Shown here: one piece after another, positions 9,727 to 60,679 of the stretch
Position numbering within the stretch: position 1 is the first letter of the stretch
Layout of the letters: each line of letters opens with the position of its first letter
NCBI RefSeq assembly: GCF_024972735.1
Contig: NZ_CP087723.1
Span: 310,001-374,000 of the forward strand
Direction: 5' to 3'
From: Halalkaliarchaeum sp. AArc-CO
GTDB lineage: Archaea > Halobacteriota > Halobacteria > Halobacteriales > Haloferacaceae
Length of the DNA stretch: 64,000 nucleotides
Program-made: the position numbers and the translations under genes
The notes under the pieces: generated by a model
Told to the model about the DNA's origin: nothing
The model's database searches: none
What the model saw: the letters and a program-made list of their open reading frames with translations, nothing else

Positions 9727-12027
9727 ATGACTGACGGGCCACCGACGGGTGCCGAGGGACCGGAGACGAACGCGGAGGGACCGGAGACGGACGCCGACGA
9801 ACCGCCGACGATCCGACAGCTCGACGAGCGAACCGTCCAGCAGATCGCCGCCGGCGAGGTCGTCGAGCGTCCCGCCTCCGTCGTGAAGGAACTCGTGGAG
9901 AACAGCCTCGACGCCGGCGCCGACAGGATTTCGGTGTCGATCCGTGCGGGCGGAACCGAGGCGATCCGCGTGCGCGACGACGGCGTCGGAATCCCCCGCG
10001 AGCAGCTCCCCGAGGCGGTCGCCCAACATGCCACCTCCAAGATCGGCGACGTCGACGACCTCGCGGGTGGGGTCGCCACCCTCGGGTTTCGGGGGGAGGC
10101 GTTGCACGCGATCGGCGCCGTTTCGCGGCTCACCGTCCGGTCGCGACCCCTGGACGACGAGGTCGGTGCCGAACTGACCGTCGAGGGTGGCGACGCCGGT
10201 GAGGTCCGCCGGGTCGGCTGTCCAGGAGGGACGACAATCGAGGTGCGGGACCTGTTTTTCAACACCCCCGCACGGAAGAAGTTCCTCGCCACCGAGACGA
10301 CCGAAACCGACCGCGTCGGGACAGTCGTCACCCAGTACGCCCTCGCGAACCCCGACGTCGCGGTTTCCTTCGAGGTGGACGACCGAGAGCGGTTCGCGAC
10401 TCCGGGCGACGGAAACCTCCGGTCTGCGGTGCTGTCGATCTACGGCCGGGAGGTCGCCGAGGGGATGATCGCGGTGGAGTTCGATGCCGCCGCCACCGAC
10501 CTCGACACGCCAGTCGATCGCGTCCACGGGCTCGTCTCCGAGCCCGAAGTGAACCGTGCGACCCGGGAGTATCTCGCGACGTTCGTCAACGACAGGTACG
10601 TGACCGTAAGCGAGCTCCGGAACGCGGTACTGTCCGCCTACGGTGGACAGCTCGCCCCCGAGCGATATCCCTTCGCCGTGCTGTTCGTCGAACTCCCGAC
10701 CGGGGCGGTCGACGCGAACGTCCACCCCAGGAAGCTCGAGGTCCGGTTCGACGACCCGGAGGCGGTTCAATCGGCCGTCGAAACTGCCGTCAGCGACGCG
10801 CTTCTAGAGCACGGCATCCTCCGGTCGTCGGCGCCACGGGGACGGTCGTCCCCCGCGGAGACGCCGGTGTCGCCGGAGGAAACATCGGTGTCGCCGGAGG
10901 CCCCCGACGAAGTCGCGGAGTTCGACGAGGCTGCGGCCGATATCGACGAGGGGCCCGGAGACCTCTCGGGAGCGGGTGCCGAATCGACGACCGGAACGGA
11001 CGTCGACGTCAGCGATGTCGTCGACGACACAGGTACGGGAGACGACACAGGTACGGGAGACGACACAGGTACGGGAGACGACACAGGTACGGGAGACGAC
11101 ACAGGTACGGGAGACGACACAGGTACGGGAGACGACACAGGCGCCACTGACGAGGTCGAAACCGGAGACACCCAAAGCGTCTCCCCGGCGGACGAGGACG
11201 GGTGGACCGTCGACGGGATCGATCGCTCCGGGGCGGCGGGGATCGCCGACCGGGGAAGCGACACCTCGATGGGCCCCGACGATGACGCGTCGATCGGTTC
11301 CGACGAGAACGCTCGACGGATTATCGACGGAACGTTCGACGCCTCGGAGCCGACGAGCCAGCGGACTCTCTCGGGGGAGACGACCGACGCCGAGCGAGCC
11401 TACGAGTCGCTCCCGCGGCTGTCGATCCTCGGCCAGCTGTTCGACACCTACGTGCTCGGCGAGGCCGACGACGGGCTCGTGTTGATCGACCAGCACGCCG
11501 CCGACGAGCGGATCAACTACGAGCGGCTCCGGGGAGCGTTCGCCGACGGTCCGCCGGCCCAGGCGCTCGCCGAGCCGGTCGAACTCGAACTCACCGCGCG
11601 GGAGGCGACGCTTTTCGACGCCGACGGGACGGCCGATCGCCTCGCCGAGTTCGGGTTCGAGGCCGACCGCGTCGACGACCGTACCGTGGAAGTGAGTGCG
11701 GTCCCGGCGGTGTTCGACGCCGCGCTCGAGCCGGAACTCCTCCGTGACGTGCTCGTCGGACTCGCACGCACCGACGCCAACGCGGGCGAGTCCGTCCTCG
11801 AAGCTGTCGACGACCTGCTGGCTGACCTGGCGTGTTACCCCTCAGTGACCGGAAACACCGGACTCACTGACGGTTCGGTCGTGGAACTGCTCTCAAAACT
11901 GGACGACTGTGAGAACCCATATGCGTGTCCGCACGGGCGGCCGACCGTCATCGAACTTTCTCGGGGGGAGATCGAGGACCGGTTCGAGCGGGACTATCCG
12001 GGACACGCCGGACGGCGCGCGGAGTGA
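9727..12027 (+). CDS. mutL: DNA mismatch repair protein MutL
   Basis: MutL couples mismatch recognition by MutS to strand incision. The GHKL ATPase domain shows ELVENSLDAGA (~55-65), DDGVGIP (~84-90) and GFRGEAL (~120-126). The C-terminal domain keeps the metal-binding endonuclease motif DQHA-x2-E-x4-E at ~588-599 and a CPHGRP motif near the end, so this MutL is predicted to nick DNA itself. The two are joined by a long acidic linker (~360-540) that includes six copies of an 18-bp repeat encoding TGTGDD. The protein is 766 aa from ATG 9727. An upstream in-frame start at 9685 adds only a non-conserved lead. No mutS lies in the window. Confidence 0.95.
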   Translation: MTDGPPTGAEGPETNAEGPETDADEPPTIRQLDERTVQQIAAGEVVERPASVVKELVENSLDAGADRISVSIRAGGTEAIRVRDDGVGIPREQLPEAVAQHATSKIGDVDDLAGGVATLGFRGEALHAIGAVSRLTVRSRPLDDEVGAELTVEGGDAGEVRRVGCPGGTTIEVRDLFFNTPARKKFLATETTETDRVGTVVTQYALANPDVAVSFEVDDRERFATPGDGNLRSAVLSIYGREVAEGMIAVEFDAAATDLDTPVDRVHGLVSEPEVNRATREYLATFVNDRYVTVSELRNAVLSAYGGQLAPERYPFAVLFVELPTGAVDANVHPRKLEVRFDDPEAVQSAVETAVSDALLEHGILRSSAPRGRSSPAETPVSPEETSVSPEAPDEVAEFDEAAADIDEGPGDLSGAGAESTTGTDVDVSDVVDDTGTGDDTGTGDDTGTGDDTGTGDDTGTGDDTGTGDDTGATDEVETGDTQSVSPADEDGWTVDGIDRSGAAGIADRGSDTSMGPDDDASIGSDENARRIIDGTFDASEPTSQRTLSGETTDAERAYESLPRLSILGQLFDTYVLGEADDGLVLIDQHAADERINYERLRGAFADGPPAQALAEPVELELTAREATLFDADGTADRLAEFGFEADRVDDRTVEVSAVPAVFDAALEPELLRDVLVGLARTDANAGESVLEAVDDLLADLACYPSVTGNTGLTDGSVVELLSKLDDCENPYACPHGRPTVIELSRGEIEDRFERDYPGHAGRRAE
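11023..11145 (+). repeat. 18-bp tandem repeat inside mutL
   Basis: The unit GACGACACAGGTACGGGA is repeated six times without change (11023-11130), followed by a partial, diverged seventh unit. It encodes (DDTGTG)n in the interdomain linker. Identity at third codon positions points to recent expansion by slippage or unequal recombination. The unit length keeps the reading frame. Confidence 0.95.
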
Positions 12028-36103: not shown

Positions 36104-37834
36104 TCAGTATGCCACGCCGACGGTTTCCTGGTAGCTGCCGTGCTGTGCTTCGAACACGTCCATGATCTCGCCCATCGTGGCGTACGCCTTCACCGCGTCG
36201 ACGATCGCGGGCATCGCGTTGTCGCCGGCGGCGACGACCGCTTCGAGTTCGGAAAGGGCTGCCTCGACCGCCTCGTCGTCGCGCTCCCGCTTGACCGACT
36301 CGAGCCGGTCGCGCTGGCGCTTTTGTACTGTCTCGTCCACCTCCAGGATCTCCGGGCGGGTGTCCTCGTCGATCTCGTAGGCGTTGACGCCGACGACCGT
36401 CTCTTCGCCCGCCTCGACGCGCTCCTGGTACTCGTAGGCGGCGTCCTGGATCTCCCGGTGGAAGAAGCCGTTTTCGATCCCGGACAGGACGCCTTCGCGC
36501 ACCGAGCCGTCACCCATTTCCCGGATCTCCTCGATGTACGCCATCGCTTCGGTTTCCACCTCGTCGGTGAGCGCCTCCACGGCGTAGGATCCCCCGAGAG
36601 GATCGACGATGTCGGCTGCGCCGGACTCCTCGGCGATGATCTGCTGGGTTCGCAGTGCGACACGGACCGCCTGTTCGCTGGGCAGCGCCAGCGCCTCGTC
36701 GTAGGAGTTGGTGTGTAGCGACTGGGTGCCGCCGAGCACGCCCGCGAGCGCCTGGATGGTCACCCGGACGACGTTGTTGAGCGGCTGCTGGGCGGTCAGC
36801 GACTGACCGGCCGTCTGGGTGTGGAACTTCAGCCGCTTCGAGGCCGGGTCAGCGGCGTCGTACCACTCGTCCATCACCCGGGCGTAGATCCGGCGGGCCG
36901 CGCGGAACTTCGCGACCTCCTCGAAGATGGAGTTGTGGGAGTTGAAAAAGAAGGACAGCTGCGGCGCGAACTCGTCGACGTCGAGCCCGCGGTCGATCCC
37001 GTCCTCGACGTAGGCGAACCCGTCCGCCAGCGTGAACGCCAGCTCCTGGACTGCTGTCGAGCCGGCCTCCCGGATGTGGTACCCCGACACCGAGATGGGA
37101 TTGAACTTCGGCGTCTCCGCGGCGGCGTACTCGATTACGTCCGTGACCAGATCCAGCGACGGCTCCGGGGGCATCACCCACTCCTTCTGGGCGATGAACT
37201 CCTTGAGCATGTCGTTTTGTAGGGTTCCCCGGAGCTGTTCGCGGGGGACGTCCTGCTGGTCTGCGAGCGCGATGTACATCGCGAAGATCACCGGCGCGCT
37301 CGGGTTGATGGTAAACGACGTCGACACCTCGCCGACGTCGATGCCCTCGAAGAGGATCTCCATGTCCCGCAGCGTGTCGACAGCGACCCCCTCCTTGCCG
37401 ACCTCGCCGTCGGCCATCGGGGCGTCCGAATCGATCCCCATCAGCGACGGCATGTCGAACGCCGTCGACAGCCCCGTCTGGCCGTTCTCGATGAGGTAGT
37501 GGAACCGCTCGTTGGTCTCCTCTGCGGTGCCGAAGCCGGCGAACTGACGCATCGTCCACGTCCGGCCGCGGTACATCGTCGGATACACTCCCCGGGTGAA
37601 CGGCTCCTCGCCCGGGAGCCCCAGATCCTCGGTGTACTCGAGGTCGGCGACGTCCTCGGGGGTGTACAGCCGATCGACCTCGAGGTTCGACACGGTGGCG
37701 AATCGGTCGCTGCGCTCGCCGTGTCGCTCCAGTACCGGATCGAGTGTTTCCGCCTCCCACTCCTCGCGCGCCCGGCGGATCTCCTCGAGTTCCTCCTCGT
37801 CGAACATAGTTCCCAGTTCTCCCCGATCGTCCAT
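36104..37834 (-). CDS. mcmA: Methylmalonyl-CoA mutase, large (catalytic) subunit
   Basis: This B12-dependent mutase subunit interconverts methylmalonyl-CoA and succinyl-CoA. The 576-residue protein corresponds to the TIM-barrel substrate-binding domain (YPTMYRGRTWTMRQFAGFGT near 85-105, TGLSTAFDMPSLMGID near 135-150, and the RAARRIYARV region ~305). The cobalamin-binding domain is missing, as is normal for archaea where it is a separate small protein; that gene is not in this window. The ATG at 37834 follows the FNR-like gene by ~85 bp on the same strand. Confidence 0.94.
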   Translation of the reverse strand: MDDRGELGTMFDEEELEEIRRAREEWEAETLDPVLERHGERSDRFATVSNLEVDRLYTPEDVADLEYTEDLGLPGEEPFTRGVYPTMYRGRTWTMRQFAGFGTAEETNERFHYLIENGQTGLSTAFDMPSLMGIDSDAPMADGEVGKEGVAVDTLRDMEILFEGIDVGEVSTSFTINPSAPVIFAMYIALADQQDVPREQLRGTLQNDMLKEFIAQKEWVMPPEPSLDLVTDVIEYAAAETPKFNPISVSGYHIREAGSTAVQELAFTLADGFAYVEDGIDRGLDVDEFAPQLSFFFNSHNSIFEEVAKFRAARRIYARVMDEWYDAADPASKRLKFHTQTAGQSLTAQQPLNNVVRVTIQALAGVLGGTQSLHTNSYDEALALPSEQAVRVALRTQQIIAEESGAADIVDPLGGSYAVEALTDEVETEAMAYIEEIREMGDGSVREGVLSGIENGFFHREIQDAAYEYQERVEAGEETVVGVNAYEIDEDTRPEILEVDETVQKRQRDRLESVKRERDDEAVEAALSELEAVVAAGDNAMPAIVDAVKAYATMGEIMDVFEAQHGSYQETVGVAY

Positions 37835-37837
37835 TAA

Positions 37838-37918
37838 GGATTCGCCGATCGCCGTCGTCGATCGCCGTCGCCAATCCCCGTCGCCGATCGCCGTCGCCGG
37901 GGCGACTCTCGCCGACGA
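37838..37918. repeat. Short GATCGCCGTCG-rich repeat tract between genes
   Basis: The gap between the mutase and reductase genes is built from several imperfect copies of CGCCGATCGCCGTCG (about four copies in ~75 bp). It is non-coding and most likely slippage-derived. No regulatory element is evident. Confidence 0.5.
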
Positions 37919-45062: not shown

Positions 45063-46820
45063 TCACAAGACCGCCGCGGCGGCGAGAAACGACGCGACGT
45101 ACACCACAGCGGCGATCGGGAGCGCGCGCCCGACACGGTAGCCGATGCTCGCGGGGTCGAGGCCGCGGTCGATCCCGGTAGCGAGTGCAGTGAGCAACGC
45201 GGCGAGCAGCAGCACGTACGCACCGATCACGAGCCCGAGGTCGGCGGTCGCGAACGCGGCCTCCCTCGCGGCTGCTTCCCCCTGTGTGGGAGCACCGCCG
45301 ACTGTTCCCGTCCCGGCGGACGATCCCGATCCCCCACCTGCGACGTCGACAGCCCGGATCCGGTCGGAGAGCGCGACGGTCGCACCTCCGACGAGCGGTC
45401 CGAACACCGTCGCGGTGTTCGAGAGGGTTCCGGTCACGTCCGAGAGCCGTCCACGTGCCTCGGTTTCGATCCGATCGAGTTCCTCCAGGTGGGTCGCCAG
45501 ATCCAGAATTACGTCCCCTGCCGGACGGCCGATCCGGGCGGCGACGCCAAGCAGTGCGGCCGCCCGACGGAACCGGGGACTGGGCACCGTCGCGAGCGCG
45601 CCATCTCTCGCCAGAAACGCCGTCCGAACGTCGACACGGAACGTCTTCCCGTACGCGACGGCGTCCTGGAACACCTCGCCTGTCGGTCCGGTTGCGTCCG
45701 CGGCCGCGTGCTCGAGTGCCGTCTCGACGGCGTCGCCCTCGGCGACCCGCTGTCCGATCCGCACCAGCGCGTCGGGCAGTCCGTCTTCGAGTTCGCGAAC
45801 CCGCCTCCGGACCGATTCGACCGGGCGGAACCACGACAGGAGACCGCTTCCGACGCCGACGCCGACCGCCGCGATCGGTCGCGTCCAGCCGGGTGCGACG
45901 GCGCCGGCGACCAGCCACGCCGCCGTCGCACACCCTCCGGCGACCGCGACCGTCCGGGGAAGCGTCCCGGATGCGTCCGGGTGTGCGCTCCTCACCGGCG
46001 GCGGCGGAAACGCGACCGGACGACGCGCCAGGAGCCATGCCCCGGCAGCCACAAGCCCCGTGGGGAGGACGACGCCGTACGCGAGGGCGACGGCCGGCAG
46101 CGACACCGGAACGCCCGCCGCCGGTGCGGCCGGCAACACTCCTACAAGCGCAAGCGGGAGCAGGACCCCGAACGCGTAGATCGCCGTGACTGGACTCCGG
46201 AGTCCGGCAGCGTAGGCCGCCAGCTCCTCCCTGGTACCGTCGACGACCGCCTCCAGCGCCCGATCGAGCGCGCGTTCGCGTCGCCTCTCGGGCACCGTCG
46301 TCGCGGTCGCGAGCTGGGCGGCGGCCCGGTCGAGCGCGGGAAAGTACGGCCGCCAGTCGGCGGCGAACGCGGCGAGCCCCGACTCCGGACCGCCCCGGGA
46401 GCGGCGGACGTGCGCCTCGAGGGCACGAAAGAGCCGCCCGTCGTCGATTCGTACTGCAAACCGGACCGCCCGTTCCATCGACGGATCGAGCCGCACTCGA
46501 AGGACGAGCAGGCCGACCAGGGCGGTCGCGTCTCCGAGCGATCGGGTCCGACGGACGCGCGCGAGCCACCGGGGACCGTACTCGACTGCCGTCGACGCCA
46601 GCAGTCCCGCTGCTGACCCGCACAGGACTCCCGGAACGATCCCGAAGAACGCGAGCGTTGCCGCGCCGACGCCGACGCCGAACAGCACACCGGCGTAGTG
46701 TCCGGCACGAACGACGGTTTCCGGCGAGAGATCGCTCTCGAGGAAAGAAAGTCCACGCCGGAGCGGTTCGTGTTGCCCGCCGTTTTCGGTTTCCTGTCGG
46801 CTGCTATCGCGCGGGCTCAC
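45063..46820 (-). CDS. pilC: Type IV pilus/type II secretion membrane protein (PilC/TadC type)
   Basis: This 585-residue polytopic platform protein anchors pilus assembly ATPases. It has two T2SF-like halves, each with a cytoplasmic helical segment (GLPDALVRIGQRVAEGDAVE around 350-370; AALLGVAARIGRPAGDVILD around 420-440) and hydrophobic helices at the ends (~35-75, ~205-265, ~280-320, ~505-585). The GTG start at 46820 overlaps the ATPase stop in GTGA, so the two are translationally coupled. No prepilin, adhesin or minor pilin gene follows; the HIT gene comes next. It could serve the orphan pilin at 16401 or pilins elsewhere. Confidence 0.88.
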   Translation of the reverse strand: MSPRDSSRQETENGGQHEPLRRGLSFLESDLSPETVVRAGHYAGVLFGVGVGAATLAFFGIVPGVLCGSAAGLLASTAVEYGPRWLARVRRTRSLGDATALVGLLVLRVRLDPSMERAVRFAVRIDDGRLFRALEAHVRRSRGGPESGLAAFAADWRPYFPALDRAAAQLATATTVPERRRERALDRALEAVVDGTREELAAYAAGLRSPVTAIYAFGVLLPLALVGVLPAAPAAGVPVSLPAVALAYGVVLPTGLVAAGAWLLARRPVAFPPPPVRSAHPDASGTLPRTVAVAGGCATAAWLVAGAVAPGWTRPIAAVGVGVGSGLLSWFRPVESVRRRVRELEDGLPDALVRIGQRVAEGDAVETALEHAAADATGPTGEVFQDAVAYGKTFRVDVRTAFLARDGALATVPSPRFRRAAALLGVAARIGRPAGDVILDLATHLEELDRIETEARGRLSDVTGTLSNTATVFGPLVGGATVALSDRIRAVDVAGGGSGSSAGTGTVGGAPTQGEAAAREAAFATADLGLVIGAYVLLLAALLTALATGIDRGLDPASIGYRVGRALPIAAVVYVASFLAAAAVL

Positions 46821-48772
46821 GGAGCCTGCCTCCCGGGATCGAGATCGGACGGCCGGTGGCGATCGGTCTCGGCCAGGCGTTCGAGGCGGTCGGATCGGCG
46901 CTGGACTGTGTCCCTGACGTCGGCGTAGCTCTCCCCCGACCGGGCGAGCGCGGACAGCAGGTGACTGTTCCCCCGGTCGCAGACTCCCGTCGACGAGTCG
47001 GCGTCAGCCCCCTCGAACAGCGGGACGCTCCGAACGTCGCCACCGCCGCCCCGGATCTCCTCGATGGCGGAGAGACGATACTCGCCATCCAGCGTGACGA
47101 CGGCGTCGGTCGCCCCAAACGAGGACGCCGAGACGCCCAGGTCCGAGACCACCCGCTCGCGGACCGCCTCGGCGCCGTCGCCGTGGATGGTTCCGAGGAT
47201 CGCCTCCCGCTGGGCGCCCACCCGCATCGCCTCGTACAGCGCCGCCGCCTCGGTTCCACGAACCTCGCCGACGACGAGCGCCCCGTCGCCGAGTCGGAGT
47301 GCGGTCCGAACCGCCTTCGTGGGGGAGATCCCGCCGCCGTGCTCTCCGAAAGCTGCCTCCTCCTGTGCGGTTCCGCCCTGGTCGGTGTGGAGCCGTTGGA
47401 CGTCCCGGCCTCCCGACTGGAGCCGGTCGACGGGTAGTTCGGGCGTGTCCTCGACGACGAGCGTCCGAACTTCGGGCGAGAGCTCCCACAGCAGTGCCCC
47501 CAGAAGCGTCGTCTTCCCGCAGCCGCGACCGCCGGCGACGAGCAGCGCCGCGCCGCGTTGGACCGCCACCGACAACAGTCCCGCCGCCCGCGGGGGAAGC
47601 GTCCCGGCGTCGATCAACCGCGGGAGCGTCCAGGGCGTCCGATCGCGGCGCCGGAATGCAAACGCCAGCCCGTCGGTGACCGGTGCCGTCGTTGCAGCGA
47701 CTCGAACTGGGTCACCGCCGATATCTAGGCTCGCGTCCAGCGTGGGGTCCGCCCGGGAGAAGCCGCGGCCGCTCTCCCGACGCAGCCTTGACGCCAGCGT
47801 GGCAGCCGCAGTCGGGGGGAACCGGACGTTCGTGACGAACCGCCGGCCGTCACGGAGGAGCCGAACCGGGTTCTCCTCGACGGGTGCAGAGACGAACGCG
47901 TCGGTCACGTCCGGGTCCGCAAACAGGTCCTCGAACACGCCGTTCCCGTGGGTGTGCTTTCGGAGGATCGTGGCGAGCCGTTCTACGGGAACGGTCGAGA
48001 GGCCGTTCTCGTCGTCCGGTTGCTCCGTCGCGGCGACCGCCGCGGCCACCGCACGATCCGCCGAGCGGTTGTCGTTTCCCCGTGACGAGCCTCGGAGCCG
48101 ATTGCGGGCCACAACCAGCGTTTCGGCGTGCTTCCGGTCGAGCCGCAGCGACGGCGGTGTGAGACGATACAGGGGCGGCGCGTCAGGTCGGCCGTACGTC
48201 CGGACGACGGCACCGGTCTCGAGTTCTATTCGCTGCCGGAGCGTCGCCGCCGGTGGTGCGCGATCCTCGATCCGGGCCCGTGCGATCGGCACCCCGTCCG
48301 CCGACCGAAGCACCTCCTCGTACCCCTCGACGTCGGCTGCGACCTCCGCGAGCCCGGTTTCGGCCGCGATCCGGCTCACGGGTCCGGCCCGACCGGTCGC
48401 CTCCCTGACGGCGTCCAGCGGATCGGTCGCGGCCAGTCCGGCGAGTCGATCGTCGTGGTGGCCGACGCGTTCGTGAAACCTGCCCGCAGCGAGCAACAGC
48501 GCGTTCGCGCCGGGGCGGTAGCGACGCGTTCTCCCGCGGGTGCGGGTGACGACGACGTCGGCGTCCCGCCGGGAGAGCGCCCGAATGACCCGGGCTCGAC
48601 ACGCCGGGGACTGCTGGAGGTTGCCGTCGCCGGCACACGCTGTCGCGTCCACCTGCAGCTCGGTCAGCTCCCGGAGGCCGGTTCCGCTCGGCTCTTCGAA
48701 CGTGGTTTCACAGCGACAGCCGTCGGCTACGTCGTCGTCGCGACCTCCGGGGAGCCGATCGAGCAGCGACAT
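46817..48772 (-). CDS. pilB: Type IV pilus/type II secretion ATPase (PilB/GspE family)
   Basis: This 651-residue secretion ATPase powers pilin insertion. The N-terminal ~300 residues are a haloarchaeal extension with cysteines (CRCETTFEE near 20; ACAGDGNL) that may bind zinc. The ATPase core has Walker A GGRGCGKTTL near 415, an Asp box around 445 (VEDTPELPVD) and Walker B DGALVVGEVRGTE near 505, with the histidine box TIHGDGAEAV near 535. It starts with ATG 48772, ~25 nt after a TATA box, and overlaps the pilC GTG. The pair forms an assembly engine without adjacent pilins. Confidence 0.9.
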   Translation of the reverse strand: MSLLDRLPGGRDDDVADGCRCETTFEEPSGTGLRELTELQVDATACAGDGNLQQSPACRARVIRALSRRDADVVVTRTRGRTRRYRPGANALLLAAGRFHERVGHHDDRLAGLAATDPLDAVREATGRAGPVSRIAAETGLAEVAADVEGYEEVLRSADGVPIARARIEDRAPPAATLRQRIELETGAVVRTYGRPDAPPLYRLTPPSLRLDRKHAETLVVARNRLRGSSRGNDNRSADRAVAAAVAATEQPDDENGLSTVPVERLATILRKHTHGNGVFEDLFADPDVTDAFVSAPVEENPVRLLRDGRRFVTNVRFPPTAAATLASRLRRESGRGFSRADPTLDASLDIGGDPVRVAATTAPVTDGLAFAFRRRDRTPWTLPRLIDAGTLPPRAAGLLSVAVQRGAALLVAGGRGCGKTTLLGALLWELSPEVRTLVVEDTPELPVDRLQSGGRDVQRLHTDQGGTAQEEAAFGEHGGGISPTKAVRTALRLGDGALVVGEVRGTEAAALYEAMRVGAQREAILGTIHGDGAEAVRERVVSDLGVSASSFGATDAVVTLDGEYRLSAIEEIRGGGGDVRSVPLFEGADADSSTGVCDRGNSHLLSALARSGESYADVRDTVQRRSDRLERLAETDRHRPSDLDPGRQAP

Positions 48773-55972: not shown

Positions 55973-56090
55973 GAGTGGTACGTGGTAACGAACGGATTAA
56001 GTGTTGACGATCCGGTGTATCCCGGCGGTCGGAAACACGCCGACGCGACCGGGGGTTTATCAGTGATGCCGAACCAGCCGGCCCCGGGTC

Positions 56091-56492
56091 ATGTCGACAC
56101 ACGAAAACGGCTCGGGAAGCGTCGCCGAACGCGACCGGGCCGAGGCCGGGATCGACGAGTTGGCTGCCGAAATCGAGACACTGGAGTCCCGTGTGGCCGA
56201 ACTCGAGGCGGCCACCGAGGCGCTTCGGGGGTACGCCGGGAGCGTTCGAAGCGTCAACCGGGCCGTCGAGCGCCGGGCGGATCGGGCCCTCGCGACCGTC
56301 GAACGGCTTCGACGCCGGCTCGACGGGGAACCGTCGGACGTCGACGTGGGAGCACCGACCGTCGCCGGCGAACCCGAGCCGATCGAGCGCCCCCGAACCG
56401 ACCGAACCGACCGAACCGACCGAACCGACCGAACCGACCGAACCGACCGAACCGACCGAACCGACCGAACCGACCGAACCGGCGAGCCGTGA
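56091..56492 (+). CDS. Coiled-coil protein with 9-bp-repeat tail
   Basis: This 133-residue protein (MSTHENGSGSVAERDRAEAG) is a single coiled coil at ~18-80 (LAAEIETLESRVAELEAATE), then an acidic spacer and a tail of repeated TDR triplets (~102-130) encoded by ten near-identical 9-bp units. I recall this as a haloarchaeal family seen beside a membrane-anchored partner (DUF7310-like), but I have no function for it. The next gene starts five bases after the stop. Confidence 0.72.
   Translation: MSTHENGSGSVAERDRAEAGIDELAAEIETLESRVAELEAATEALRGYAGSVRSVNRAVERRADRALATVERLRRRLDGEPSDVDVGAPTVAGEPEPIERPRTDRTDRTDRTDRTDRTDRTDRTDRTDRTGEP
56393..56480. repeat. 9-bp tandem repeat (CCGAACCGA)n
   Basis: About 9.8 copies of CCGAACCGA run through the 3' end of the coiled-coil gene. 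The unit is a multiple of three, so copy-number change does not shift the frame. All three plus-strand frames and the minus frames are open through it. Units are perfect or nearly so, implying recent expansion. Confidence 0.93.
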
Positions 56493-56496
56493 TCCC

Positions 56497-56970
56497 GTGA
56501 TCCGGCCCGCGGTTTCGATCGTGCTCGCGGTCGTGCTGGTAGGGGTCGCAACGGGGGCGCTTTCGGCCACGGAGACGGAACGCTCTGTGACGCACGTCGA
56601 GGGTGAGATCGACCGTCTCGAGCGCGCCGCCGCCGACCTCGTGGCGTCCTCGACGGCGGTAGCGGGGATCGACAGTGCCGGGCGAGTTCCGGTGACGGTG
56701 ACAGTCCCGGACAGCGGGATCTCGAGCGCCCGGATCGACCGTGTTCGGCTCGGCTGTCCGGTTTCGGTTCCGTCCGAGGAGTGTCCGCCGTGGCAGGCGA
56801 GCTACCGCCTTCCGGACGGGACTGCCCGGCAGCTATCGGTCGACGGTCCTCGCCTCAGAACGGCCGATGGGCCGCTCGTGTTCGGTCCCGGAAAACACCG
56901 GCTGTCACTCGTGTACGTTCGGACCGAGGACGATCGGCCCGCCGTGATCGTCAGCCGTCGCGGCGCCTAG
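56497..56970 (+). CDS. Membrane-anchored haloarchaeal protein
   Basis: This 157-residue protein has one N-terminal hydrophobic helix (~2-25, IRPAVSIVLAVVLVGVATGAL) and an acidic, beta-rich extracytoplasmic domain. I recall it as a haloarchaeal family of unknown function (DUF7311-like) adjacent to coiled-coil partners. The GTG at 56497 is preferred because it directly precedes the helix; the frame upstream is only the repeat tract. Helix position and size look pilin-like, but there is no class III signal motif. It is convergent with the TRAM gene (4-bp overlap). Confidence 0.7.
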   Translation: MIRPAVSIVLAVVLVGVATGALSATETERSVTHVEGEIDRLERAAADLVASSTAVAGIDSAGRVPVTVTVPDSGISSARIDRVRLGCPVSVPSEECPPWQASYRLPDGTARQLSVDGPRLRTADGPLVFGPGKHRLSLVYVRTEDDRPAVIVSRRGA

Positions 56971-57368
56971 AGGTCCTCTTCGATGACCTCGCCGACCGCG
57001 AAGTTCGACTTCACCTCGGTCACTTCGATCTTGACGCGCTCGCCGACGTCGGCCCCGGGGACGATGATGACGTAGCCCCGTTCGACGCGGGCGATCCCGT
57101 CGCCTTGTTTGCCGAGATCCTCGATTTCGACGTACCGGATTTCGCCGGGTTCGACGGGCGGCTGCGGGCCGTCGTCGTGGTCGGCAGCCGCGGACTCGGA
57201 CGGTTCGTCGGTTTCTGCCTGTCCGGCGATCAGCGCGACCCGGTAGGTCTCCCCCGCCGAGAGCGACCCGGTCTCGATCTCGCGACGGGGCACCTCGACG
57301 ACGTAGCTGTCTCCCTTCTCGCGCAGTTCAGCACTGAACAGACAAAGCAGGTTATCGGAGATTTCCAT
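56967..57368 (-). CDS. TRAM domain RNA-binding protein
   Basis: This 133-residue protein has a TRAM domain at ~78-133 (EIEDLGKQGDGIARVERGYVIIVPGADVGERVKIEVTEVK, in shorter pieces) that binds RNA and is shared with MiaB/RumA methylases. The first ~45 residues form a small beta segment and an acidic linker follows. Such proteins occur singly in haloarchaea and may act as RNA chaperones. The ATG at 57368 begins MEISDNLLCLFSAELR. It is divergent from nothing close; moeA ends ~100 bp further on. Confidence 0.9.
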   Translation of the reverse strand: MEISDNLLCLFSAELREKGDSYVVEVPRREIETGSLSAGETYRVALIAGQAETDEPSESAAADHDDGPQPPVEPGEIRYVEIEDLGKQGDGIARVERGYVIIVPGADVGERVKIEVTEVKSNFAVGEVIEEDL

Positions 57369-57470
57369 AGCAGACCTCTACCGTTCGCGTGGGCATCGTT
57401 CCTAATAGTTGTACCGCCGCAAACCCGGGCGGGCGCCCCGGAAAAACCGGGCGGGCGCCCCGTTTTCCGG

Positions 57471-59408
57471 TCACGAATCGTCCGCGGATTCGAACCCGTC
57501 GAGACCGGCCAGGTGATCCTCACCCGTCAGGGCAGATTCGAGACGGACGACGCTCGGCTTTTCGGTTCGCTCGGGGTTCGCACGGACGCGGACCTCCTGG
57601 ATCCCGATCGGAACGAACCCGAGCCCCAGTTCCGTCGCGGTCGCCCGGAGGCCGATCCCGACGTCGGCGTCGCCGGCGGCGACCGCACGGGCCGGGCTCT
57701 CGAACGCCCGCGATTCGAGGGTGAACCCGTCGATTTCGTCGATGGCCTCCTCGCTGTCGAACCCCCGCTCGCCGGCGAGGGTGTCGATCTCGGCCTCGAG
57801 AGCGGTTCGCAGTCCGGAGTCGCTCGTCCGGTTGCGGAACGCGAGGTCCCGATCGAGCAGGTCACCGAGCCCCCGTACATCGTCCGGGTTGTCCTGCGGG
57901 ACGATCAGCCCCCACTCCCGCGTCCACCCGCCGAGCTCGACCGCGTCGACCGATCGGCGCACCGGGCCGGCGGTGACGACCACGTCCGGAAGCCCGTCCC
58001 GGAGCCGCCGGAGACCCTCCCGCGTGCCGACCGGGAGGTACCGCGGCCGGTCGAGCTCGTCGAGCAGCCGGTTGAGCGCGGGATCGTCCTCCCCGACGCC
58101 CAGAAGTGTCGGCGGGCGGACGTCCGGGGAGAACAGCTCTACCTCGACGCGCTCGCCGGCATCAAGGTAGTCGGTATCCGGGTCGATCGCGACCACGCCG
58201 TCGGCCTCGACGAGGCTCGTCGTCGCCCCCGAGCCCTTGTCGACCGGATAGACGAGCGGTTCACTCTCTTCGGCCGCGGGTTCTGTGGATCCCTCGACAT
58301 CCAGAAGTCCGACCGGGAGGAACCGGAGCCGCCCCTCGCCGTGGCGCTGTTCGACGGCCATCCGGCCGGTGACGGTCGCGGTCTCGGGTTCCGGGATGCC
58401 GGCGGCCTCGCGCAGGGCCGGCGCGAGGAACGTCCGGAAGATGGTAAGCGCGGACACGGGGTAGCCCGGGAGGCCGACGTACGCGGATTCACCGCCGTCT
58501 TTGCGGTCCAGCCGCCCGACGAGCATCGGCTTGCCGGGCTTGACTGCGACGCCGTGCAACAGGAGTTCTCCCCGCCGTTCAATCACCCGATAGATGACGT
58601 CGACGGCACTCGCCGAGGTCGATCCCGAGGAAACGACGAGGTCACACTCGTCGGCCGCCTGCGAGAGCAACCGTTCCATCTCCTCGTCGTCGTCGCCGAC
58701 GTTGGGGTATAGCTTTGCGGTCCCGCCCGCTTCCTCGACGGCCGTAGCGATCGTGTAGCTGTTGACGTCGTAAATCTCCCCCCGATCGTCGTTCAGCGGT
58801 TCGCCCGGCCGGACGAGCTCGTCGCCGGTCGAGACGATCCCGACGGTCGGCCGACCCCGGACAGGAACTTCCTCGACGCCCAGCGCCGACAGCAGGCCGA
58901 TCTCCCGGGGGGTGAGCCGCGTCCCCGGGCCGAGCGCACGGGCGCCGGCGGCGATGTCCGCGCCAGCGAGCATCACGTGGTCGCCCGGTGCGACGGCGGT
59001 CCTGACCGCGATCCCGTCGCCGCCGTCCACCGGATCCGTGCGCTCGACCATCACGACGGCGTCGGCACCCGGGGGCATCACCGCCCCGGTGGAGATCTCG
59101 ACGCAGGTTCCCGGATCGACGGTCGCGTCCGGCTCCTCGCCGGCGTGGATCTCGCCCACGAGATCGAGCACCGCCGGGGCCGCCTCGTCCGCGCCGAAGG
59201 TGTCGCGCGCTCGGACCGCGTAGCCGTCCATCGACGCCCGGTCGAACCCCGGGACGTCGCGTCCGGCGTCGATCCGTTCGGCGAGCACCCGTCCCCGGGC
59301 CTCCGTGAGGGGGACCGATTCCGGATCGCCCGTCAACTCGAGCGACGCGATCGCTTCCCTCGCCTCCTCCGGGGTGGCGAGATCGCGGAACTGCTTTCGG
59401 TCGCTCAC
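57471..59408 (-). CDS. moeA: MoeA-type molybdopterin molybdotransferase with C-terminal periplasmic-binding-like domain
   Basis: MoeA inserts molybdenum or tungsten into adenylylated molybdopterin. The 645-residue protein starts with GTG 59408. The N-terminal ~400 residues show PGFDRASMDGYAVRA (~55-70), GTRLTPREIGLL, VSTGDELVRPG and SSGSTSASAVD motifs of MoeA. The C-terminal ~230 residues (from ~415) belong to the PBP-like type found in LysR-substrate and molybdate-binding proteins (NRLLDELDRPRYLPVGTREG, DVVVTAGPVRRS). The GTG overlaps the stop of the second moeA, forming GTGA coupling. The fused domain may sense molybdate or tungstate. Confidence 0.92.
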   Translation of the reverse strand: MSDRKQFRDLATPEEAREAIASLELTGDPESVPLTEARGRVLAERIDAGRDVPGFDRASMDGYAVRARDTFGADEAAPAVLDLVGEIHAGEEPDATVDPGTCVEISTGAVMPPGADAVVMVERTDPVDGGDGIAVRTAVAPGDHVMLAGADIAAGARALGPGTRLTPREIGLLSALGVEEVPVRGRPTVGIVSTGDELVRPGEPLNDDRGEIYDVNSYTIATAVEEAGGTAKLYPNVGDDDEEMERLLSQAADECDLVVSSGSTSASAVDVIYRVIERRGELLLHGVAVKPGKPMLVGRLDRKDGGESAYVGLPGYPVSALTIFRTFLAPALREAAGIPEPETATVTGRMAVEQRHGEGRLRFLPVGLLDVEGSTEPAAEESEPLVYPVDKGSGATTSLVEADGVVAIDPDTDYLDAGERVEVELFSPDVRPPTLLGVGEDDPALNRLLDELDRPRYLPVGTREGLRRLRDGLPDVVVTAGPVRRSVDAVELGGWTREWGLIVPQDNPDDVRGLGDLLDRDLAFRNRTSDSGLRTALEAEIDTLAGERGFDSEEAIDEIDGFTLESRAFESPARAVAAGDADVGIGLRATATELGLGFVPIGIQEVRVRANPERTEKPSVVRLESALTGEDHLAGLDGFESADDS

Positions 59409-60679
59409 TGTGATCCCTCCCACACCTCGACGGGGACGGTCTCGCCGGCGTCGAATCCCTCCAGCGGTTCCGGGACGACGACCCAGCCGTCGGCAAGGGC
59501 AACCGACGAGAGCACCCCCGACCCCGAGGCACGGGTGGGCGTCGCCACGAGCGAGGGTTTCTCGCCGTCAGCACCCTCGTCGTCGCCGGCGTTCGCGTCG
59601 TCCGACTCCAGTCGAACCCGGGCGAACGTCCGGGTGCCGGGTTCGCTGGGGATTTTGCGCGTCAGGCGCGCGGTTCGGGTCGGGTGTGGCGGTAGCGGCA
59701 TCCCGCCGACGTCCTTGAGCACCGGTCGGAGGAACTGCACGGCGTTAACGATGCAGGCGACGGGGTAGCCGGGGAGCATCACGACCGGCGTGTCTTCGAC
59801 CGCGCCCAGCGCGACCGGATGTCCCGGCTTGAGCGCGACGCCGTGGACCAGCAGCTCGCCGAGTCCGTCGACGACGTCGGGAACCAGGTCGCGTTCCCCC
59901 ACCGACGAGCCGCCGGTGGTGACGACGATGTCGTGGTCCAGGTCGCGTTCGATCGCGTTTTCGAGGGCGTCCTCGTCGTCGGTGACGATCTCTCGATACG
60001 TGGCGTCACTACCCCACCGTTCGGCGAGCCGTGTGACCGTGAGACCGTTCGTCTCGATCACCTCGCCCGGTCCGGGGTCCGACTGCACGAGCTCTTCGCC
60101 GGTCGGGAGAACGGCGACGGTCGGGCGTTCGTAGACAGTGAGCTCCTCCAGCCCGACGGACTTGAGCAGGCCGAGATCGGACGGGCGGAGCCGGTGGCCC
60201 GGCTCGTAGAGGGTCTGTCCTTCTGCGACGTCTTCGCCGGCGTCGCCGACGTTTTCCCCCTCCGCGACGGCGTCGAACACCTCGAGTTCCTCGAGTTCGT
60301 CGTCGCTGCCGTCGATCTCCTCGACCTGTTCGATCATCACGACTGCGTCGGCGCCCGACGGGAGGTCGCTGCCGGTGTGAACTCGCGCGGCTTCCTCGGG
60401 ACCGACCCGGCCGTCGGTCGGACGGAGGACGCTCGGAGAGCGTTCCGAGGCGCCGAAGGTGTCACGCGCCCGGACCGCGTAGCCGTCCATTGCTGCCCGG
60501 TCGTAGCCGGGGACGGGGTTGGGCGCCGCGATCGTCTCGGCGACGGTCCGTCCGTCGGCGTCGGCGACGGCGACGCGTTCCGTGCGGCCGTGTGGTTCCA
60601 CAACCTCCCGGATCGAATAGAGAGCGTCTGCGACCCGGGTGCGATGTTTGAACCCGGACTCCTGTCGGTCGGTGGTCAT
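59405..60679 (-). CDS. moeA: Second MoeA paralogue
   Basis: This 424-residue molybdopterin molybdotransferase lacks the fused binding domain. It shows PGYDRAAMDGYAVRA (~60-74), VLPTGEELVQSDPGPGE near 195, TTGGSSVGERDLVPDVVDGL near 250 and HPVALGAVEDTP near 290. It is translationally coupled to the larger paralogue by a 4-bp overlap. Two MoeA proteins per genome are common in archaea and have been linked to separate use of molybdenum and tungsten; which does which cannot be told here. No moaA-E or moeB gene is in the window. Confidence 0.93.
   Translation of the reverse strand: MTTDRQESGFKHRTRVADALYSIREVVEPHGRTERVAVADADGRTVAETIAAPNPVPGYDRAAMDGYAVRARDTFGASERSPSVLRPTDGRVGPEEAARVHTGSDLPSGADAVVMIEQVEEIDGSDDELEELEVFDAVAEGENVGDAGEDVAEGQTLYEPGHRLRPSDLGLLKSVGLEELTVYERPTVAVLPTGEELVQSDPGPGEVIETNGLTVTRLAERWGSDATYREIVTDDEDALENAIERDLDHDIVVTTGGSSVGERDLVPDVVDGLGELLVHGVALKPGHPVALGAVEDTPVVMLPGYPVACIVNAVQFLRPVLKDVGGMPLPPHPTRTARLTRKIPSEPGTRTFARVRLESDDANAGDDEGADGEKPSLVATPTRASGSGVLSSVALADGWVVVPEPLEGFDAGETVPVEVWEGSQ

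Follow-up and report, generated by a model that had tools for sequence, protein, structure and literature searches.

The locus studied here raises the question of why the gene of a small coiled-coil protein ends in a perfect tandem repeat, and whether this tail matters for the protein and for the membrane-anchored product of the next gene. The locus lies in a stretch of 64,000 nucleotides of Halalkaliarchaeum sp. AArc-CO, the whole of which was analysed and is hereafter called the window. The genome it comes from (G000) has 3.18 Mb in two contigs.

A perfect in-frame array in the tail of a DUF7310 protein

The repeat, with the unit CCGAACCGA, occupies positions 56393-56481 of the forward strand. 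Tandem Repeats Finder (TRF) gave it a period of 9, 9.9 copies, and 100% matches, in agreement with a preceding sequence-only reading that had seen about ten units of a 9-bp repeat at the tail of a coiled-coil protein. The exact 9-periodic run at this place spans 89 nt. The longest run elsewhere in the window has 19, and no run exceeded 21 in 20 sequences of 64 kb simulated with a third-order Markov model or 25 in 2,000 codon shuffles of the tail. The array shares the reading frame of the coiled-coil ORF (56091-56492), and its codons, CGA ACC GAC, encode (RTD)n close to the C-terminus of the protein, which ends in DRTGEP. All copies are identical, third codon positions included, which points to a recent growth of the array. 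The first part of the tail (56331-56392, forward strand) is non-repetitive except for one near-copy at 56374, CCGAGCCGA, which begins 19 bases ahead of the array, has a single mismatch with CCGAACCGA, and is a plausible seed for it. Runs of at least three units were found in only one of 60 genomes, that of the window, and there at this locus only.

The repeat had also been noted to be open in every frame, including the antisense, and this had been taken as a sign of tolerated, rapidly changing sequence. The observation is accurate but does not carry the argument. The unit lacks T, so its own strand cannot hold TAA, TAG, or TGA; the complementary strand lacks A and cannot hold them either. Openness in all frames is thus automatic and uninformative.

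The gene (56091-56492, forward strand) encodes a protein of 133 aa that matches the Pfam family DUF7310 (PF23991) with an E-value of 2.2e-20 and 73.4 bits, above the gathering cut-off of 40. The match covers positions 21-83 of the 83 of the profile, its start falling at profile positions 19-21. The 13 matches in NCBIfam were all below the curated cut-offs and mostly concerned coiled-coil families. The AlphaFold2 model shows a single helix at residues 8-78 (block mean pLDDT of 97-98 over residues 21-70) and is unstructured beyond it (51-60 over residues 81-133), which leaves a disordered tail of about residues 80-133. The array part of this tail is charge-balanced (10 R for 9 D and 1 E), and the tail as a whole is net negative, with a charge of -6 for a family median of -10. 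A possible TATA-like box (TTTATC, 56056-56061, forward strand), read from the sequence and putative in its function, lies upstream of the gene. The stretch that contains it, TTTATCAGTG, is identical in the genome of the window and in that of the congener (G001).

The tail has no counterpart in the congener

We compared two genomes of the genus, one per species. In the congener, DUF7310 ends immediately behind the coiled coil, with the residues RRLDEE, and nothing there corresponds to positions 56331-56489, the 53 codons for the final 53 residues of the protein in the window. Over the remainder of the gene, the two sequences share 80% amino acid identity, and DUF7311, the partner gene, follows with an equal gap of 4 bases. 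The core of DUF7310 has a dN of 0.106 and a dS of 0.471 between the two species (76 codons), and DUF7311 a dN of 0.125 and a dS of 0.420 (156 codons). Both are under purifying selection between these species. Since the genus is represented by these two genomes only, a gain of the tail in one species is indistinguishable from a loss in the other.

The idea of a tolerated and fast-changing tail is supported. The sequence-only reading had regarded a tail that is missing or non-repetitive in relatives, together with a pair that is not conserved, as evidence against its proposal. What we find is divided: the congener has no tail and other relatives have a different one, yet the pair is conserved.

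DUF7311 is a putative membrane partner

The downstream gene (56497-56970, forward strand) encodes a protein of 157 aa with a GTG start at 56497, which lies 4 bases past the stop of DUF7310 and not five, as had been read. It matches PF23993 (DUF7311) over profile positions 1-149 of 150, with an E-value of 6.3e-28 and 98.7 bits for a gathering cut-off of 27; the single match in NCBIfam was below the curated cut-off. Its AlphaFold2 model (mean pLDDT of 90.2) has one long helix at residues 3-51 (49 residues) followed by eight strands. The first half of the helix is hydrophobic, which agrees with the proposal of a membrane-anchored partner, and the model suggests that the beta domain would be extracytoplasmic. 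A fold search with the model retrieved no PDB match at E ≤0.001 (the best had 0.084), and 7 of 998 chains reached a Z of 2 and none a Z of 5, which does not by itself make the fold a new one.

Type IV pilins carry a prepilin-peptidase site ahead of their hydrophobic helix and a Glu at position 5. By inspection, the start of DUF7311, MIRPAVSIVLAV (GTG read as M), has neither the site nor Glu 5, and the N-termini of the other DUF7311 proteins inspected are of the same kind. A further mark of a pilin would be a long N-terminal helix and beta domain that fit solved pilins; the DUF7311 model has a helix (3-51) and a beta domain, and no PDB structure matched it at either threshold (E of 0.001, Z of 5). 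We also asked whether DUF7311 could be related to DUF7285, a pilin-like protein of the regulon described below. This was not supported: the profile-profile comparison gave a probability of 7.5% and an E-value of 0.0047, using 55 of 59 non-redundant DUF7311 sequences (four left out without special reason) and 24 of 44 DUF7285 sequences plus one. A DUF7285 protein searched with the DUF7311 model gave an E-value of 0.0031 and 18.5 bits, under the cut-off of 27.

In relatives, the pair is associated with a type IV pilus regulon

Using the window proteins as queries, we found matches to DUF7311 in 30 and to DUF7310 in 39 of 60 genomes, the window's own included. DUF7286 was found in 40 of the 60 (own included), and the results for DUF7310 and DUF7286 coincided, with both present among the matches or both missing, in 57 of them, again with the own genome. 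A wider draw from the order gave DUF7310 over the cut-off in 156 of 213 genomes and DUF7286 in 159 of 213. A looser tally for DUF7310, 196 of 213, includes weak coiled-coil matches of a kind also seen in unrelated control genomes.

We scanned named relatives, retaining the best 80 of 152, and made the synteny counts on the 65 of these 80 loci that have at least 9 kb on both sides. PilB and PilC are encoded downstream of the pair in the same orientation in 62 of the 65, as are DUF7283 in 59, DUF7286 in 59, DUF7285 in 56, and DUF7284 in 38; a divergent CetZ gene lies upstream in 41. In one more locus, PilB, PilC, and DUF7286 are encoded on the opposite strand. The pair is thus placed, in these relatives, between a divergent cetZ and the series pilB-pilC-DUF7283-DUF7285-DUF7284-DUF7286. 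It had been suggested to look for the pair beside pilus genes in other genomes, and that is where it is found: synteny shows that, as a rule, DUF7310-DUF7311 are the leading genes of a PilB/PilC type IV pilus regulon among the haloarchaeal loci that we examined. In one relative (G018, C4:46488-49540, within L066), DUF7286 is in two pieces with an internal stop in each, and may be a pseudogene or reflect a sequencing error.

These loci have a counterpart in the literature. According to the two papers concerned, the halobacterial pilB2/C2 type IV pilus regulon adjoins cetZ2 (PMC9856176), and the type IV pili of subclade 4F, which are halobacterial, come with an intracellular coiled-coil protein, arCOG07564 (PMC4858521). 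The DUF7310 loci of relatives match the former regulon, and DUF7310 fits the description of the latter protein. We infer that arCOG07564 corresponds to DUF7310, and cetZ2 to the cetZ linked to the regulon. The pair had been described as having no known function. This is so in the sense that Pfam names both families as being of unknown function, and our literature search found no paper naming DUF7310, DUF7311, DUF7286, or DUF7283, and one that names arCOG07564. It does not hold at face value, since the pair of relatives belongs to a described type IV pilus regulon and arCOG07564, a coiled-coil component of such a system, has been published (PMC4858521).

The window pair corresponds to that of relatives: the two genes are adjacent, in the same order and on the same strand, and both pass the Pfam cut-offs. 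The surroundings differ, because the genes of the CetZ-linked PilB/PilC regulon are dispersed in this genus. The window encodes a PilB-type secretion ATPase (46817-48772, reverse strand), which matches Pfam T2SSE at 1.1e-17 and belongs to the blastp cluster that comes next after DUF7311 in relatives (cluster 0). It also encodes a PilC-type membrane protein (45063-46820, reverse strand), assigned by a blastp cluster in common with the PilC of relatives. The latter has no Pfam match of its own at an E-value of 0.01, and the PilC of one relative matches T2SSF only weakly, with an E-value of 0.0063, below the cut-off. The pair is not adjacent to these two genes but 7.3 kb apart, on the opposite strand. 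Of the other regulon genes, DUF7286, DUF7284, DUF7285, and two CetZ genes were found in the genome: DUF7285-DUF7284-DUF7286 lie about 48 kb beyond the pair, and a cetZ that scores like the regulon-linked ones lies about 75 kb away. In the congener, PilB, DUF7285-7284-7286, and CetZ lie at roughly similar distances. Given this separation of the pair from the pilus genes in the genus, the case for a role in pili here rests on the relatives.

Most DUF7310 proteins combine a variable tail with conserved ends

We collected 110 DUF7310 entries, corresponding to 104 distinct proteins on which the tail statistics were computed. Tail length varies between 4 and 466 aa, with a median of 81.5, and the tail is net negative in 99 of the 104. 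In most of the DUF7310 proteins examined, the C-terminus is formed by a conserved tip, GxLxRLRxxL-COOH, which is distal to the variable linker. Its consensus, G-[AL]-L-x-R-[LI]-R-[DE]-x-L at the very C-terminus, was derived from sequences retained with a strict pattern that itself fixes the second R and restricts other places. This strict motif was found in 83 of 104 proteins, for a mean of 0.0 in shuffled tails, and a looser version in 89 of 104, for a mean of 1.4. At the other end, the motif R[LVI]x[AT][VIL][ED][RK] occurs in 100 of 104 proteins, although the pattern can also match within the coil, as it apparently does in G010. It is missing in G000, G001, L059_G035, and L119. Both motifs are usual for the family but do not define it. 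The two genes overlap by 4 nt in 52 of the 98 pairs for which the start of DUF7311 was found (among the 110 entries, duplicates kept). When the last codon of DUF7310 is CTG, CTG TGA contains the GTG start of DUF7311, and the final Leu is therefore partly constrained.

The DUF7310 of the window departs from this scheme. It lacks the tip LxRLRxxL, ending instead in DRTGEP after its (RTD)n tail, as well as the N-terminal part of the profile, and a gap of 4 nt replaces the overlap, as in the congener. None of these features (tip, N-terminal motif, overlap) is present in either species of the genus. We considered whether separation of the pair from the regulon is followed by decay of the terminal motifs. 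Among the first 30 loci, of which 4 could not be placed, strict patterns showed both motifs to be missing in 4 of the 5 genomes (from two genera) in which DUF7286 is far away on the same contig, and in none of the 21 in which it is near, six of which miss one. The core alignment of DUF7310 (A1) covers 26 of these 30 loci. In three genomes of a larger sample, G093, G158, and G097, the pair is far from DUF7286, yet DUF7310 matches its profile from position 1, which contradicts the decay for the N-terminal part. We therefore rejected it as a rule, for that part only.

Repeats are common in these tails. TRF reported a repeat scoring at least 40 in 35 of the 102 tails of at least 60 nt, for a mean of 9.0 of 102 in codon-shuffled tails, 19 of 102 in upstream stretches of equal length, and 7 inside DUF7311. 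The excess is real but not extreme, as the upstream stretches are themselves fairly rich in repeats. The window tail has the highest copy number among the tails with TRF repeats (9.9, with 100% matches) and the second TRF score, 178, after 287 in G037. The DUF7310 of G037 (L056) has the longest tail seen, 466 aa, with a 36-bp repeat in 4.7 copies.

Other simple repeats in the window

The window has a second perfect coding repeat. The linker of mutL (9727-12027) contains an 18-bp tandem repeat at 11023-11141, in 6.6 copies, a simple repeat within a mismatch-repair gene. The MutL linker of the congener has a different perfect 18-bp repeat, in 3.5 copies. Like the array of DUF7310, the mutL repeat is perfect, in frame, and different in the congener; it differs in having an 18-bp unit in a central linker rather than a 9-bp unit in a C-terminal tail. 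Since both species have their own MutL repeat, lineage-specific linker repeats are not special to DUF7310. Two other repeats were noted. A 13-bp repeat with 4.5 copies and 86% matches (37842-37899) lies just upstream of the gene at 36104-37834 (reverse strand) and is probably intergenic. A GC-rich 22-bp unit in 1.9 copies (57421-57462), between the genes at 56967-57368 and 57471-59423 (both on the reverse strand), is a candidate terminator-like element.

Origin of the array and alternative explanations

Taken together, we regard the array as most likely a young, lineage-specific, in-frame minisatellite, nearly neutral, in the disordered tail of DUF7310, itself a likely pilus accessory. It would have grown out of a GC-rich, partly repetitive linker, through slippage or unequal recombination. 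The disordered tail is probably under weak constraint, and changes in its length would be close to neutral. As the 9-bp unit keeps the frame and introduces no stops, the copy number can drift while the gene stays unbroken, and there is no on/off switch by frame. Sequence and model suggest that DUF7310 is a cytoplasmic coiled-coil rod, and the model of DUF7311 suggests a membrane partner whose N-terminus is a long helix and whose beta domain lies outside. From the synteny and these models, the pair would most likely have an accessory role at the pilus base.

One alternative is a functional (RTD)n tail, in which the number of units would tune the reach or the charge of DUF7310 and hence the way this protein contacts the membrane or the base of the pilus. 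The long linker of relatives ends in a conserved tip, so the length of the linker may matter in the family, and the array part of the tail is charge-balanced, even if the tail as a whole is net negative. However, the genus lacks the tip, so that the linker has no known element to display, the congener manages without the tail, and identical DNA units are what recent slippage would produce without selection. We consider a functional tail improbable. Another alternative is a contingency (phase-variation) locus switching DUF7310 or DUF7311, in that the array is perfect, lies directly upstream of a closely spaced gene, and is likely to gain and lose units. Contingency repeats have units whose length is no multiple of three or are located in a promoter; this array, with its 9-bp unit inside a coding frame, has neither property. 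Yet changes by whole units of 9 bp keep the coding frame and bring no stop in any frame, and the start of DUF7311 lies outside the array, which makes phase variation very unlikely. Finally, the absence of the array from the 59 other genomes searched could suggest an artefact of assembly or sequencing. This is very unlikely, because the 89 nt are shorter than ordinary reads, the frame is kept, and a second perfect repeat exists in the mutL of the window, with a different one in that of the congener.

A speculative scenario, which we think rather unlikely as a whole, is that DUF7310 is a tether, a cytoplasmic coiled-coil rod at the base of the pilus whose conserved tip, carried on a disordered linker of variable length, would dock a partner such as PilB, CetZ, or the membrane; the genus would have lost the docking tip, and the freed tail would drift as a simple repeat. 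SSB and FtsZ have a hypervariable disordered linker that ends in a conserved tip. The DUF7310 family shares with them only this layout of a helical core, a variable linker, and a conserved C-terminal peptide; fold and sequence differ, and the window protein is without the tip.

As a repeat, the array is an ordinary linker minisatellite. What is gained is a clearer anatomy of DUF7310, a likely pilus component of archaea that has been little studied: its rod and tip are conserved, the linker between them changes fast, and its gene directly precedes that of its membrane partner and often lies beside a tubulin-like cytoskeletal gene. Should the tip turn out to bind PilB or CetZ, one could ask directly whether this cytoskeleton and this pilus are physically joined.
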